Assembly (NCBI GenBank): GCA_947626395.1 | Contig: CANQRU010000012.1 | Location: 1 to 64,000, forward strand | Reading direction: 5' to 3' | Length of the DNA stretch: 64,000 nt | Source: an uncultured Lachnospiraceae bacterium | GTDB lineage: Bacteria; Bacillota; Clostridia; Lachnospirales; Lachnospiraceae | In this document: positions 8,229 through 22,910 of the stretch, piece by piece | How the letters are laid out: every line of letters starts with the position of its first letter | Numbering within the stretch: position 1 is the first letter of the stretch | Program-made: the position numbers and the translations under genes | The notes under the pieces: model-generated | Database searches by the model: none | Seen by the model: the letters and a program-made list of their open reading frames with translations, nothing else | Told to the model about the DNA's origin: nothing

Positions 8229-8257
8229 TTGACAAAAGGCAAAGAATATCATATAGT
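8229..8257 (+). promoter_or_regulatory. promoter of the DUF3800-linked RNA
   Basis: TTGACA (8229-8234) and TATAGT (8252-8257) with a 17-base spacer, predicting a start near 8264. The transcript would pass through a compact structured leader that ends in a terminator 16 bases before the DUF3800 start codon. Confidence 0.8.
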
Positions 8258-8263
8258 AACATT

Positions 8264-8358
8264 GCAGGTAGAAATACGCTGTATACCCGTGCCACCGAAT
8301 TCACGTTTAAGTGTCATGTACTGGCACCGGCCACGGGGCCGCCGAAAGGCGGCTTTTT
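8264..8358 (+). ncRNA. short structured RNA upstream of the DUF3800 gene
   Basis: This predicted ~95-nt RNA lies between a strong promoter and an intrinsic terminator. GTGCCA (8289-8294) can pair with TGGCAC (8322-8327), and CCCGTG (8286-8291) with CACGGG (8332-8337). The two pairings share bases 8289-8291, so they are alternatives. From memory, several candidate structured RNA motifs named for adjacent DUF3800 genes have been described by comparative genomics; this arrangement fits them, but I cannot assign a class. Its role (antitoxin-like, attenuator or other) is unknown. Confidence 0.6.
8338..8358 (+). terminator. intrinsic terminator between the small RNA and DUF3800
   Basis: GCCGCC (8338-8343), GAAA loop, GGCGGC (8348-8353), then five T. 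It is textbook in shape and sits just before the ribosome site of the DUF3800 gene, so translation of that gene depends on read-through. Confidence 0.85.
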
Positions 8359-8374
8359 GTTTAAGGAGATAGAA

Positions 8375-9796: not shown

Positions 9797-10024
9797 ATGG
9801 GACGAATCATCATTGATCTGGACGTGGTCATGGCGAAGCGGAAGATGGGCCTGACGGAGCTTTCGAAAGAGGTGGATATCACCATGGCGAACCTGTCCAT
9901 TTTGAAAAATAATAAGGCGAAGGCCGTCCGGTTCTCCACGCTGGAGGCGCTCTGCAAAGCGCTTAAATGCCAGCCGGGGGATATTATAAGGTATGAGGAG
10001 GAAGGCAATGCGCAGCATTCTTAA
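9797..10024 (+). CDS. small Cro/C1-type HTH regulator (YozG-like)
   Basis: This 75-residue cytoplasmic DNA-binding protein is a single helix-turn-helix: TELSKEVDITMANLSILKNN is the HTH core and FSTLEALCKALKCQPGDII the trailing helices typical of YozG-type regulators. It starts at ATG 9797 with AGGAGG about 7 bases upstream. Regulators of this type are routinely paired with DUF2975 membrane proteins and probably control the pair's own expression, which is inferred from family context. Confidence 0.85.
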   Translation: MGRIIIDLDVVMAKRKMGLTELSKEVDITMANLSILKNNKAKAVRFSTLEALCKALKCQPGDIIRYEEEGNAQHS

Positions 10025-10121
10025 AATGCCTTCCGACGACGTGGCAGGTCTGCGAAGCAGGCGTGCCGATACCTTGGTATGAAGAGGATGGCGGCGCGGA
10101 AGTGTGAAGGAGGGGGAAATT

Positions 10122-17981: not shown

Positions 17982-18185
17982 GTGCAGGCAAAAGGAAGGA
18001 AAAAGACAACAGAAACCAGCTGCGACAGCTGCGCCAATCTGGTCTATGACGAGGATTACGAGGAATATGTCTGCGACGTCGATATGGACGAGGACGACTA
18101 CGGCCGCCTGATGGCGGACCGGTCATTCGTATGCCCCTACTACCGCAACGGCGACGAGTATGCGGTCGTGCGGCACCAGATGTAG
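17982..18185 (+). CDS. DUF6472 family small Cys protein
   Basis: This acidic protein of 67 residues has paired cysteines: CDSCANLVYDEDYEEYVCDV and, near the end, CPYYRNGDEY. The sequence fits DUF6472, small proteins of unknown function common in Clostridia. The four Cys suggest a zinc or iron site. It starts at GTG 17982 after AAGGGGGTGAT; ORFs reading further upstream run into the T-box terminator. It lies between the T-box and valS, 109 bases before valS, so it should be induced by valine starvation along with valS, which is the most informative clue to its role. Confidence 0.8.
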   Translation: MQAKGRKKTTETSCDSCANLVYDEDYEEYVCDVDMDEDDYGRLMADRSFVCPYYRNGDEYAVVRHQM

Positions 18186-18294
18186 CAATAAATCTTCAGG
18201 CTCCAGAAAGCACATAAGTTGCATCATCCGCAAAACCCACACGGGATGGCAGAAAAGGAGCCTTTGCAAAAAAGAAAGAAGGAGACAATCACAC

Positions 18295-21075
18295 ATGAAA
18301 GAACTGGAGAAAAATTACAACCCCGCCAAGATCGAAGGCGAGCTCTACGACCGCTGGATGAGCCGCGGGTATTTTAAGGCGAAGCCCAATCCGGACAAAA
18401 AGCCGTTTACCATTGTGATGCCGCCGCCCAACATTACCGGGCAGCTGCACATGGGCCACGCCCTGGATAACACGATGCAGGATATCATCATCCGCTACCG
18501 CCGGATGCAGGGCTACGAGGCCCTGTGGCAGCCGGGTACGGACCACGCGGCCATTGCTACCGAGGTGAAGGTGATCGACAGCCTGAAGAAGCAGGGCATC
18601 GAGAAGGAGGATCTGGGACGCGACGGCTTCCTGGAGAAATGCTGGGACTGGCGGAAGGAATACGGCGGCCGCATCATTAACCAGCTGCATAAGATGGGTT
18701 CCTCCGCCGACTGGGACCGGGAGCGCTTCACGATGGACGAAGGCTGCTCGGAGGCCGTGCTTGACGTGTTTACGCGCCTGTATGAGAAAGGCTGGATCTA
18801 CAAGGGCAGCCGCATCATCAACTGGTGCCCGGTGTGCCAGACCTCCATTTCCGACGCGGAGGTGATCCATGAGGACCAGAACGGCTATTTCTGGCATATC
18901 AATTATCCGATCGTGGGCGAGGAAGGCCGCTTCGTGGAGATCGCGACGACCCGTCCGGAGACGCTTTTGGGCGATACGGCGGTGGCCGTGAACCCGGAGG
19001 ATGAGCGCTATCAGGACCTGGTCGGGAAAATGCTGGAGCTGCCGCTGACCGGTCGCCAGATCCCGGTGATCGCCGACTCCTATGTGGACAAGGAATTCGG
19101 GACCGGCTGCGTGAAGATCACGCCGGCACACGACCCCAACGACTTCGAGGTGGGCAAGCGCCACAACCTGGCGGAGATCAATATCCTGCACGACGACGCG
19201 ACGATCAACCTGCCGGGCAGCAAATACGACGGTATGGACCGCTACGAGGCCCGCAAGGCGATGGTGGCGGATCTGGACGCCCTGGGTCTTCTGGTGAAGG
19301 TGGTTCCCCACACGCACGCCGTGGGTACCCACGACCGATGCGGCACCACCGTGGAGCCCATGATCAAGCCCCAGTGGTTCGTGAAGATGTCGGAAATGAT
19401 CAAACCTGCCGTGGAAGCCGTGAAGAACGGAGATATCACGCTGCTTCCCCAGCGCATGGATAAGATCTTTTACAGCTGGACCGACAATATCCGCGACTGG
19501 TGCATTTCCCGCCAGCTCTGGTGGGGCCACCGGATCCCGGCCTATTACTGCGCCGACTGCGGCGAGATGACGGTTTCTAAGACCCGCCCGGAGAAATGTC
19601 CCAAGTGCGGAAGCACGCATCTGAACCAGGACGAGGATACGCTGGATACCTGGTTCTCCTCCGCGCTGTGGCCCTTCTCCACGCTGGGATGGCCCGAGCA
19701 GACGGAAGACTTAAAATATTTCTACCCGACGGACGTGCTGGTGACCGGATACGATATCATTTTCTTCTGGGTCATCCGCATGATCTTCTCCGGCTACGAG
19801 CAGACCGGACAGAAGCCCTTCCACACGGTGCTGTTCCACGGCCTGATCCGCGACTCCCTGGGCCGGAAGATGAGCAAGTCTCTGGGAAACGGTATCGACC
19901 CGCTGGATGTCATTGACAAATACGGCGCCGACGCGCTGCGCATGACCCTGGTGACCGGCAACGCTCCCGGCAATGACATGCGCTTCTACTGGGAGCGGGT
20001 GGAGAACAGCCGCAATTTCGCCAACAAGATCTGGAACGCGTCCCGGTTCATCATGATGAATCTGGAGAAGGCGTCCCCCGAGCAGCTTCACGCCTACGAT
20101 ATCGCTTTCGGCGTCAAGCCCTGCCCGACCGCGAACGGCGGCGACGGAACCTGCGTAAACTGCAGCAGCGTGGAGCCGCTGACACTGGCGGATAAATGGA
20201 TCCTTTCCCGGGTCAACGACCTGATCCGTGAAGCAACCTATAACCTTGATAAATATGAACTGGGCATCGCGCTGCAGAAGGTGTACGATTTCGTGTGGGA
20301 GGAGTTCTGCGACTGGTACATCGAGATGGTGAAGGCCCGTCTGTGGAACGACGACGACAAGACCCATACGGCGGCTATCTGGACGCTGAAAACGGTGCTG
20401 GTGCAGTCGTTAAAGCTTCTGCATCCGTACATTCCGTTCATCACCGAGGAGATCTTCTGCAATCTGCTGGATGATAACGAGACGATCACTGTGGCCCAGA
20501 TGCATCCCGACGGGACGGTGACGGAGAGCGAGAGCACGGAGCGGTCCATCATGATCTCGTCCTGGCCGCTGTACCGCGAGGCGTGGAATTTCGCGAAGGA
20601 AGAGGCCGAGGTGGAGACCATCAAGGACGCAGTCCGCGCGATCCGCACGGTGCGTACTTCGATGACGGTGCCGCCCAGCAAGAAGGCCCATGTGTATGTG
20701 GTGTCGGAGAATCAGGAGCTTCTGGACATCTTCGAGCGCAGCAAGGCGTTCTTTGCGCTCTTAGGATACGCCAGTGAGGTGAGCCTGCAGACTGACAAGA
20801 CCGGGATTCCGGAGAATGCGGTATCTACGGTGATCGCCCAGGCGGCCATCTACATTCCGCTGGCGGAGCTGATCGATATCGCGAAGGAGATCGAGAGGCT
20901 GGAGAAAGAGGAGACACGGCTTGTGGGCGAACTGGCACGTGTGAACGGGATGCTTAGTAATGAGCGCTTCGTGAGCAAGGCTCCGGCGGCGAAGATCGCT
21001 GAGGAGCGGGAGAAGAAGCAGAAGTATGAACAGATGATGGAGCAGGTGAAGGAGAGATTGGCGCAGCTGCGGTAG
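18295..21075 (+). CDS. valS: valyl-tRNA synthetase
   Basis: This class I aminoacyl-tRNA synthetase of 926 residues charges tRNA-Val in the cytoplasm. The HIGH motif appears as HMGH (52-55, within PPPNITGQLHMGHALD) and the KMSKS motif at 525-529 (GRKMSKSLGNGIDP). The editing domain lies between them, and zinc-type CxxC pairs occur (CADCGE ... CPKCGS). The last ~65 residues form the coiled coil typical of ValRS (EIERLEKEETRLVGELARVN). It starts at ATG 18295 after AAGAAGGAG. Expression is governed by the valine T-box leader at 17580-17886. No truncation is seen. Confidence 0.97.
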   Translation: MKELEKNYNPAKIEGELYDRWMSRGYFKAKPNPDKKPFTIVMPPPNITGQLHMGHALDNTMQDIIIRYRRMQGYEALWQPGTDHAAIATEVKVIDSLKKQGIEKEDLGRDGFLEKCWDWRKEYGGRIINQLHKMGSSADWDRERFTMDEGCSEAVLDVFTRLYEKGWIYKGSRIINWCPVCQTSISDAEVIHEDQNGYFWHINYPIVGEEGRFVEIATTRPETLLGDTAVAVNPEDERYQDLVGKMLELPLTGRQIPVIADSYVDKEFGTGCVKITPAHDPNDFEVGKRHNLAEINILHDDATINLPGSKYDGMDRYEARKAMVADLDALGLLVKVVPHTHAVGTHDRCGTTVEPMIKPQWFVKMSEMIKPAVEAVKNGDITLLPQRMDKIFYSWTDNIRDWCISRQLWWGHRIPAYYCADCGEMTVSKTRPEKCPKCGSTHLNQDEDTLDTWFSSALWPFSTLGWPEQTEDLKYFYPTDVLVTGYDIIFFWVIRMIFSGYEQTGQKPFHTVLFHGLIRDSLGRKMSKSLGNGIDPLDVIDKYGADALRMTLVTGNAPGNDMRFYWERVENSRNFANKIWNASRFIMMNLEKASPEQLHAYDIAFGVKPCPTANGGDGTCVNCSSVEPLTLADKWILSRVNDLIREATYNLDKYELGIALQKVYDFVWEEFCDWYIEMVKARLWNDDDKTHTAAIWTLKTVLVQSLKLLHPYIPFITEEIFCNLLDDNETITVAQMHPDGTVTESESTERSIMISSWPLYREAWNFAKEEAEVETIKDAVRAIRTVRTSMTVPPSKKAHVYVVSENQELLDIFERSKAFFALLGYASEVSLQTDKTGIPENAVSTVIAQAAIYIPLAELIDIAKEIERLEKEETRLVGELARVNGMLSNERFVSKAPAAKIAEEREKKQKYEQMMEQVKERLAQLR

Positions 21076-21150
21076 GGGCGTGGATTCGCATGTTCTGTCG
21101 GTGTGCATTCCAAAGAATATAAGGGGTGCGCATATGGTCGCGGGAGGTAC

Positions 21151-21406
21151 GCGTGGCAGACGGGGCCGGGACACATCCTGAACGCTCATGACTCCGAAGG
21201 GAAGTCTTTCTAAATTCAAAAACGCCAGTTTGAGGGCAACGGCAAATTCGCGAGAATTTCTGAAGAAATTCTCGCTCAGGTTGCCGCTCCGCCCATGACT
21301 TGTGGTCATGGGCGTCGACCCTCAAACTGGCGTTTTCTCATTAAGAAAGACTAACCCTTCTCCGTAAATCGCGCCCAGGATGTGTCCCGGCCCCGTCTGT
21401 CACGCT
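21151..21406 (+). repeat. structured palindromic element, copy A (plus orientation), unrecognised family
   Basis: This ~256-bp element can fold on itself along its whole length. Outer arms: 21151-21180 pairs with 21376-21405 with one mismatch. Inner arms: the segment around AACGCCAGTTTGAGGG (21220-21235) pairs with 21321-21337. The apex carries two hairpins: GCGAGAATTTC / GAAATTCTCGC (21250-21260 / 21265-21275) and CGCCCATGAC / GTCATGGGCG (21290-21299 / 21305-21314). Unpaired segments GCTCATGACTCCGAAGG (21184-21200) and CTAACCCTTCTCCGTAAATC (21351-21370) recur in copy B. It could be an RNA gene, a mobile structured repeat or an elaborate terminator after valS. ORFs running through it are side effects of the palindrome. 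Confidence 0.8.
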
Positions 21407-21528
21407 GTGTTGCCGCTGGCGGAACTTTTGCTGTAGAAGATTCGTTCTTTTTATCGACTTCTAAAATGATTCTCTGCCGCCGGCGCGATGGCGTGAAGGA
21501 AGCTAGGACTTTAGTCCTTGCGAAAACA

Positions 21529-21770
21529 CAGCGAGAGGAAGCCCCGCCGTCTGCGCGATTTGTGGAGGAGGGTTAGAGGTTCTTAGGCGAAAAGCGGCCG
21601 CCGCCGGGGCCGGAGTCCCTGACCTCAAGTCAGGGACGGAGCGCAAGCTGAGTGAGAAATCCCTTCAGGATTTCTCACGAATTTGACGGAGCCCCGGCGG
21701 CGGCCGCTTTTTGTCTTAGAACCTCTTCCCTCCGGAACCATGAGCGCAGGCGGCGGGGCTTCCTCTCGCG
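21529..21770 (-). repeat. structured palindromic element, copy B (minus orientation), homologous to copy A
   Basis: Read on the minus strand, this ~240-bp element has the architecture of copy A. Outer arms pair 21530-21546 with 21754-21770, and GCGGCCGCCGCCGGGGC (21594-21610) with 21691-21707. Apical hairpins are GTGAGAAATCC / GGATTTCTCAC (21652-21662 / 21668-21678) and GTCCCTGAC / GTCAGGGAC (21615-21623 / 21629-21637). Helix sequences differ from copy A while pairing is kept. Unpaired stretches are conserved: minus-strand GCTCATG.TTCCGGAGGGAAG (21725-21745), CTAACCCTCCTCC then AAATCGCGC (21553-21576), and the inter-hairpin linker TCAGCTTGCGCTCC (21638-21651) against TCAGGTTGCCGCTC in copy A. 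Confidence 0.8.
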
Positions 21771-21871
21771 TACCTCTCGCGACTATGTGCCACATTTTGC
21801 CGGCAAATATCACCTATCAGCTCAAAATTTCATTTCAACATCCCGCCATCGAAAATTAATTTCCAAAAAGA

Positions 21872-21941: not shown

Positions 21942-22910
21942 ATGTATACGGAAGTATTTCAGAAAAGCCGGGTTGCCGGCCAGATATACGACTTATGGTC
22001 GGAATGCGCGGGAGAGAACGATTTCCCGTATAAAGCGTTGAATTCCGACGAACTTGAACGTCTTCTGCTGGCGGCGGAGCCGGGCATTGGGAAGATAACG
22101 CTTCTCCACGAGAGCGGCCGTGCCTTCGCAGGCGGCAGTTATACAGAAGACGAAGGGCGGGGCTTTATCACCATGGTTCTGACAGCGGCCGATGCCAGAA
22201 GAAGCGGCCTTGGCAGTGAGATGCTTTACGCTCTTGAGGCGGAAATGAAAAAACGTTTCCATTTGAAAGAGATACATATATCCTATTTCGATCCGGTCAA
22301 TCTGGTCTGGGAGATTCCCGGTCATCCGGGCTGCGAGCATCCCAATTCGCCCGGCGTGGATATATCGTCGCCGGCTTATGAATTCTTCCATGCCGTGGGA
22401 TATCGGGACTACTCGCGGCAGAACAGTTATTTCAGGCAGATCGGAGACTATGAGGTTCCCGCATCCATCAGGGAGATCGAGGCGCGGCTGAACGCGGACG
22501 GTTATTTTATCCGCGTCTATGATCCGGATACGATGGAGGGCATGACGGATCTGATCGATCATCTTGGAAATTCCATGTGGAGAAGATCGATCCTGGGTGA
22601 ACCGCTTCCTGCAGACGGCGGACGGCCGATCCTTGTGCCGGTGAAGAACGGCAGGGTCCTGGGATTTGCGGGGCCGCTGGATGTGGAAGTCAGCGGAAGA
22701 GGTTTCTTTTCCGGGATCGCCGTCGATCCGTCCGCCAGGGGCCGGGGTGTGGCAAAGGTATTATTCTCGGCGCTCTGCGCGAATCTGCGGGCGATCGGAG
22801 CCGGCTATATGACGCTCTTTACCGGCGAGGATAACCCGGCCAGAAGGATCTACGAGGCGGCAGGGTTCACGATCGTGAAGAGCTGGGCGGATATGAAGAA
22901 GGAGGTATGA
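21942..22910 (+). CDS. tandem GNAT N-acetyltransferase
   Basis: This cytoplasmic protein of 322 residues has two GNAT-type halves that transfer acetyl or acyl groups from CoA. The first half has VLTAADARRSGLGSEMLYAL and the second IAVDPSARGRGVAKVLFSAL, each an acetyl-CoA-binding RxxGxG/A loop, and ends with the typical NPARRIYEAAGF. It starts at ATG 21942 after AAAGGAG. The stop lies just before the GTG of the next gene, with AGGAGG inside its own 3' end, so the three genes to 25758 form one operon. With the NamZ enzyme downstream, the substrate could be an amino sugar or muropeptide, which is inferred. Confidence 0.85.
   Translation: MYTEVFQKSRVAGQIYDLWSECAGENDFPYKALNSDELERLLLAAEPGIGKITLLHESGRAFAGGSYTEDEGRGFITMVLTAADARRSGLGSEMLYALEAEMKKRFHLKEIHISYFDPVNLVWEIPGHPGCEHPNSPGVDISSPAYEFFHAVGYRDYSRQNSYFRQIGDYEVPASIREIEARLNADGYFIRVYDPDTMEGMTDLIDHLGNSMWRRSILGEPLPADGGRPILVPVKNGRVLGFAGPLDVEVSGRGFFSGIAVDPSARGRGVAKVLFSALCANLRAIGAGYMTLFTGEDNPARRIYEAAGFTIVKSWADMKKEV

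Follow-up and report, generated by a model that had tools for sequence, protein, structure and literature searches.

Paired branched hairpins with inverted ends form a candidate mobile, non-coding DNA element in Lachnospiraceae

Anatomy of the 661-bp unit

In the window, by which we mean the whole 64-kb stretch of DNA that was analysed, a plus-strand gene (18160..21075) that we take to be the valyl-tRNA synthetase gene, valS, ends with its stop codon 54 nt ahead of a 661-bp unit (21130-21790). Beyond the unit lies a GNAT acetyltransferase gene (21942..22910, plus strand), the start of which, not the end, is toward the second half of the unit. The unit comprises two ~260-nt branched hairpin halves and 24-nt inverted ends, arranged in the order terminus, hairpin A, middle, inverted hairpin B, terminus. 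The hairpin of half A (type A; 21151..21405, plus strand) is built from outer arms (21151-21201/21355-21405), inner arms (21203-21236/21319-21352) and two apical hairpins, both on the plus strand: apical hairpin 1, GCGAGAATTTCTGAAGAAATTCTCGC (21250..21275), is a module swapped among copies, and apical hairpin 2 reads CGCCCATGAC-TTG-TGGTCATGGGCG (21290..21314). The hairpin of half B (type B; 21531..21769, minus strand) has outer arms at 21531-21572/21728-21769 and inner arms at 21575-21610/21691-21726, and carries the minus-strand apical hairpins 1, GTGAGAAATCCTGAAGGGATTTCTCAC (21652..21678), and 2, GTCCCTGACTTGAGGTCAGGGAC (21615..21637). The 105-bp middle (21416..21520) is variable; its counterpart in the nearest relative's orthologous unit is 492 bp long. 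The window has 11 inverted repeats that are 20 nt or longer, and five of these come from A and B, four of them as arm pairs and one as a pairing between A and B. Middles, as at L245, L062, L158 and L007, often contain tandem repeats, and their length differs between orthologous loci.

An earlier note on this DNA had reported two oppositely oriented copies of one ~250-bp structured element here. Both structures lie where it placed them, with nested arms at the coordinates given above, and both fold far more stably than shuffled sequence: half A at -180 kcal/mol (z -17.8) and half B at -184.2 kcal/mol (z -14.8), with 0/200 shuffles as good in each case. The outer ends that it gave, 21151 and 21770, fall short, as homology extends over 21130-21415 for half A (plus strand) and 21521-21790 for half B (minus strand), reaching a left terminal inverted repeat, GCATATGGTCGCGGGAGGTACGCG (21130..21153, plus strand), and its right partner, minus-strand GCACATAGTCGCGAGAGGTACGCG (21767..21790); this 24-nt pair is 88% complementary. 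Because the homology runs outward to these inverted termini, we treat 21130-21790 as one unit with two unlike halves instead of as two copies of one element. Elsewhere in the genus, sequences resembling the left terminus stand at the start of many A and B halves and at the end of type C halves.

No Pfam match up to an E-value of 0.01 was obtained for ten ORFs that lie within units or overlap them, and the one ORF of at least 50 aa that lies fully within the window unit matches no Pfam family. The earlier note had not recognised the family, and Rfam agrees: the element in the window has no Rfam match at the gathering score, and 16 related loci searched against Rfam at a relaxed E-value matched miRNA or viral hairpin models only, all below gathering scores. 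Such an element was not found described in the open PMC literature, among the matches listed. Elsewhere in the window, Rfam matches a DUF3800-I RNA (8257-8363, plus strand, 94.9 bits) and a GA-cis RNA (9993-10077, plus strand, 45.8 bits).

Two kinds of partner gene were considered and rejected. Twenty proteins, of which 16 are encoded close to copies in other genera and four come from the window and the C8 locus, belong to unrelated families (HSP90, UvrC, EPSP synthase, YchF, SpoIIIAA, MraW and others, with 2/20 proteins in none), and no linked transposase or integrase was seen among the neighbours scanned. Nor does PF01797, the mark of a RAYT/Y1 partner, track the element over 26 genus genomes; it is absent in 6 of the 9 element-bearing genus genomes, which are drafts, full in G000 and G012, and present as a fragment in G001.

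Copies, spread and doublet layout

The family is patchily distributed over Lachnospiraceae. In the genome from which the window comes, a DNA search with half A returned 12 places with full or near-full copies, in addition to mirror and partial rows, and a motif search allowing up to 3 mismatches returned 17 places, one of them (C26) fragmentary, including B halves missed by the A query. Among 41 genomes searched, nine were positive, corresponding to 9/25 of the same genus and 0/16 of others. An exact motif scan of a species-genome collection, from which records of the window's own genome were possibly left out, found 34 stretches, 33 of them from uncultured Lachnospiraceae MAGs named Lapin, a name that we infer points to rabbit. 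The sole motif match outside Lachnospiraceae in that scan, in an actinobacterial MAG (L115:5973-5994), may be due to chance.

A covariance model, which the earlier note had proposed as a route to homologues, was built from 23 copies and found many: relatives occur in 16/299 genomes of the family, representing 15/298 genera including that of the window, with E ~1e-5 for the weakest two family-wide matches. When 12 of the 16 carrier genomes were re-searched, 12/12 were positive, with 1 to 37 copies among the matches listed, a few of which are mirror rows. A class-wide sample, for which the filters were stricter and 6 candidates were scored in each genome, such that weak copies may be missed, gave 1/391 genomes positive, the window's own. 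Plasmid and phage records gave no element match, and viral contigs gave none to the one 22-base motif by which they were searched. In the genome G219 the unit is ~980 bp long; counting the query, 11 full-length matches at 84-100% identity stop sharply at flanks that are unrelated. The 60-nt ends of this unit are 85% complementary and its middle has inverted arms of its own. No autonomous copy or parent transposon was seen in G219 (139 matches; 40/166 candidates scored).

Neighbouring halves are arranged as 39 convergent, 2 tandem and 0 divergent pairs. In the window's genus all 19/19 neighbouring pairs are convergent, each joining an A with a B, and in other genera 20/22 are convergent and 2 tandem. 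The 95 copies from other genera exclude opposite-strand mirror rows, the partial copies L163, L168 and L243, and the full-length L148, L149, L173, L242 and L234 836-1071, the last of which (43 bits) would give one more convergent pair. Eighteen of the 37 own-genus copies without an A/B partner have a type C hairpin downstream, 50 to 384 bp away; its far end, printed for 13 of the 18, starts with CGCGT, the inverted terminus, in 13 and goes on to TGTGC in 11. For a further 19/75 copies in the genus no partner is seen, and 2 of these lie near a contig edge.

Variants of this layout were seen at individual loci. Two sister genomes have a solitary type C hairpin (GGTGAATTTTG.GAGC...GCAAATC...) after valS (L247:747-898, plus strand; L249:1110-1317, minus strand), and that of L247 has TACGCG-like ends on both sides. 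At L064:2150-5040 (G000:C8), 2.4 kb separates converging A and B halves, with three ORFs between them (EamA, one that has no family, and tRNA_bind). The flanking genes there are presumably rsmG and parA, which are usually adjacent, and the locus is possibly a unit that took up genes. A short derivative at L068:2548-2664 (G000:C4) has the terminus and left arm of B and, after them, an inner end in inverted orientation.

Helices, conserved loops and the strand that folds

Covariation was measured on 23 of the 72 aligned copies (alignment A2), picked at <95% identity. In this alignment, in which copies from sister species are not independent of one another and paired cells are not independent events, 96.5% of 1466 cells are paired and 33/64 pairs show two-sided change. 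The covariation score is 0.386 as compared to 0.126 in shuffles (0/500) and no more than 0.079 when partners are slid; of five covariation measures, one, the count of additional pair types, did not exceed shuffles (151/500). Two-sided changes occur almost without G-U steps, and the pair closing the loop of hairpin 2 is U-G in 18/23 copies. The covarying helices described in the earlier note thus stand up statistically, although part of the two-sided change is whole-hairpin exchange, as detailed below. With many homologues, significant covariation and no match in Rfam, none of the outcomes that would have overturned that note was seen in these searches.

The conserved bases outside the helices, also described there, hold in the consensus of the 72 genus copies, in which unpaired stretches are among the most conserved positions. 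These are CGCTCATG..TCCG.AGGG; TCTAA; CAAATTCG before and CTCAG after hairpin 1; and CTAACCCT.CTCC..AAATCGCG. In other genera, read by eye, hairpin 1 mostly retains a CTGATG- or CTGAAG-like loop and ATTC...TCAG flanks. Copies of 325-331 bp occur at L044/L157, L057 and L050, and in L157 the extra bases sit in the loop of hairpin 1. At the 5' ends of L072, L083 and L085, the hairpin is preceded by GGTACGCG-like units in tandem, each 10-12 nt or roughly one helix turn long.

Counts of G-U and A-C cells are equivalent for duplex DNA and unequal for an RNA strand. Across seven alignments of 129 sequences, with 708/732 helix pairs kept (at least 70% Watson-Crick cells), the 12,529 filtered cells include 12,093 Watson-Crick, 123 GU and 158 AC. 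RNase P, taken through the same steps as a control (28 RNAs of the family, out of 30 loci returned, 39/40 genomes matched, L312 and L317 near contig ends), gave 73 GU and 8 AC, and on the wrong strand 6 GU and 50 AC. The unfiltered element counts are 377 GU and 177 AC; by subtraction, the 24 skipped helix pairs contribute 254 GU and 19 AC; G-U frequently predominates in their columns, the U-G that closes the loop of hairpin 2 being one example. The reverse strand of the element is more stable than the forward strand in 6/7 alignments, whereas the RNase P reverse strand is much less stable. Folding the reverse strand gave 166 GU and 106 AC summed over the seven alignments, RNAalifold favouring G-U on whichever strand is folded, and G219 leans to the reverse strand, with forward GU of 1 and 2 vs AC of 16 and 10. 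Because filtered G-U is no commoner than A-C, unlike in RNase P, and because hairpins swap as blocks, the fold looks to be kept in DNA or on both strands, and not on a forward RNA strand. We regard the count as strong but not final, since the cells are not independent events. On both grounds, the two-sided change that the earlier note had taken for the signature of a selected RNA does not bear that reading. Strong covariation in bacterial DNA, this suggests, need not mean RNA, and the G-U vs A-C count, having told the element from RNase P, is usable on other candidate RNAs.

The block swaps emerge when orthologous copies are compared: in 17 such comparisons, with backgrounds differing by 0 to 12%, hairpin 1 was either the same (0-1 difference) or wholly swapped (7-9). 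It was replaced by another known allele in 5/17 comparisons, two of the five using the same G000 copy, and seven alleles cover 65/76 copies. Copies here trade whole blocks, for which gene conversion is the simplest explanation, and the result mimics compensatory change. The exchange, together with GU about equal to AC, would also suit functionless quasipalindromes behind genes, kept symmetric by replication template switching and with their variants spread by gene conversion; in the excerpted text of PMC8794818, template switching can create and maintain hairpins. We find this account quite improbable, as internal loops are retained in the 72-copy consensus and not corrected away, the loop-based model finds the family in 14 further genera, and neither the termini nor the convergent, heterotypic layout is predicted. 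Template switching may help the arms stay alike, leaving the kept loops, shared termini and layout unexplained.

Gene ends, orthologous loci and the favoured reading

Position was scored against ORFs of at least 150 aa within 300 nt of a copy. The outer end is toward the 3' end of a gene in 101/123 scored copies: 42/52 in the window's genus (75 examined) and 59/71 in other genera (95 examined), with G087 as a counter-example at 2/6 scored copies. In G126, 21/21 scored halves (24 examined) face a 3' end; the stop codon lies 55-78 nt from the model start in 19 of them, and a stop codon (TAA, TAG or TGA) abuts WTGG, the start of the shared terminus, in 13/21. The G126 units lie between convergent genes in 8/8 cases, with stops 67-77 nt from the model on both sides in 5 and on one side in 3. 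Among own-genus units (n=19), 4 are between convergent genes, 11 between tandem and 1 between divergent genes, and 3 are not assigned; the convergent-gene rule is a G126 result, and the window's genus is looser.

This orientation is what a 3'-end RNA device would produce, each half forming the 3' UTR of the preceding gene and either terminating transcription or protecting the message from 3' exonucleases. The two halves of a convergent unit would then serve one gene each and, both strands having to fold, no G-U bias would result. The orientation of the 101 copies, the G126 halves in which WTGG directly follows the stop codon, the very stable folding of both strands, and a GC stem then a T run within the half in the own-genus consensus are all consistent with such a device. 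We nevertheless consider it unlikely, for GU is not above AC after filtering, and a terminator scan found 2 sites vs 1.5 in shuffles, both on the plus strand, with the site in B against the orientation of B. The A-run/T-run of the window's genus was not seen in G126 or L158 and is reversed in G219, the outer side of B in the window is toward a gene start, and the shared inverted termini and the dispersal of ~980-bp units would be left unexplained.

Many copies occupy one and the same locus in several species. Two loci have a single half in G000 vs both halves in G004 (~95% identical at the valS flank), and because the middle sequence persists past the G000 half at one of the two, the single halves at such G000 loci look like remnants. 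The earlier note had raised the question of empty sites in related strains; no clean one was found, and no insertion was caught, among the valS loci of the genus and the G126 locus in three sisters. valS was found in 25/26 genus genomes, and the window DNA past valS was matched in G004 only; in 11 stretches downstream of valS, inspected by reading, other genes follow. At the G126 locus, by eye, G339 has unrelated sequence, whereas G341 and G340, whose sequence there includes a run of N in the case of G340, have other hairpins. Again by eye, these (L271 and L272; G341:C1 and G340:C5) are a different family of large convergent hairpins, placed past the stop codon of the first of the two genes that flank the unit in G126, with a similar terminus and a G126-type remnant in the middle.

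Conservation at shared loci can also be read as that of fixed chromosomal protein-binding sites, spread long ago, now kept by selection and immobile today. BIMEs, for comparison, contain sites for gyrase or nucleoid proteins. Conserved unpaired bases, TACGCG-like motifs spaced 10-12 nt at some termini, and the many copies at one locus across several species would fit such sites. Immobility is harder to square with G219 units of 84-100% identity at unrelated places, with an element in only 9/25 genus genomes, and with other hairpins, seen by eye, at the same site in sister species, all of which make this reading decidedly unlikely in our estimate.

The flanks bear on how the units might have moved. 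Over 35 units the longest shared flank word is 6 nt, short target duplications being still possible, and mean flank words for true vs mispaired flanks are 3.2 vs 2.6 in the window's genus, 3.6 vs 2.9 in G126 and 2.8 vs 4.3 in G219. The absence of a target duplication longer than 6 nt argues weakly against ordinary DDE transposition.

Taken together, we favour, with moderate confidence, a DNA element that is non-autonomous, non-coding and probably mobile and that operates in the manner of a very large REPIN, in line with the structured mobile repeat that was among the options of the earlier note. Dispersal is what points to mobility, since gain at a new site was never seen, and the function suggested here is likewise read from sequence comparison. 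An enzyme acting in trans might recognise the inverted terminus together with the folded hairpin, as a single strand or a cruciform, and would copy the unit to new places with no visible target duplication. Insertions would persist at sites where the damage is slight, immediately after stop codons, and the paired hairpins there may also act as a boundary between transcripts. The arms would be held complementary by selection on the DNA fold together with template switching, and the copies would be homogenised by gene conversion. A bolder version, which we put forward as a doubtful possibility, is that of mobile non-coding DNA homing to gene ends, with inverted ends and two interchangeable giant hairpins able to fill the stop-to-stop gap, moved by an enzyme other than a known Y1 with no visible target duplication and with its modules shuffled among copies. 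A mobile element of the favoured kind would extend the structured repeats of Lachnospiraceae, one of the main groups of bacteria in the gut, by a large class, and raises the questions of which enzyme moves the unit and why it starts so often at stop codons.

Several known systems invite comparison. The GC stem and T run of the own-genus consensus recall an intrinsic terminator; they are absent or reversed in the other genera read, and the terminator scan was not above shuffles. Large Rfam RNAs are likewise long, branched and covarying, but the element has no Rfam match, no G-U excess after filtering, and many copies. Integron attC sites are recognised as folded single-stranded DNA. So are the ends of IS608 and ISDra2 (IS200/IS605), according to the excerpted text of PMC6006769. 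No transposase or integrase linked to the element was seen among the neighbours scanned. With MITEs and ERIC/RU-type repeats, as portrayed in part of PMC2759123, it shares a non-coding nature, multiple intergenic copies and inverted ends. Terminal inverted repeats, a MITE feature, are present at 24 nt in the window's genus and 60 nt in G219; no target duplication longer than 6 nt was seen in 35 units, though shorter ones may exist, no parent transposon was seen among the G219 candidates scored, and the element has far more internal structure than MITEs.

REPINs and BIMEs, as described in the excerpted founding paper (PMC3116915), resemble the element in that they are non-coding and extragenic and pair palindromic halves in inverted orientation around a spacer that is less conserved, with singlets as remnants; 93% of the 430 doublets reported there are inverted. 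REP palindromes measure 20-40 bp in the excerpt of PMC3733652, whereas the halves of the element are ~260 nt long, carry two apical hairpins each and come in the unlike types A, B and C. The element also differs in occurring 1 to 37 times per carrier among the matches listed, not hundreds of times, in often beginning at a stop codon, and in that the RAYT (Y1 family) is missing from 6/9 genus carriers, all drafts. Since size, unlike halves and the missing Y1 transposase (6/9 carriers) fail to match, we do not file the unit as a REPIN; since its inverted doublets, non-coding nature, singlet remnants and folded palindromic halves do match, we read it as working like one.
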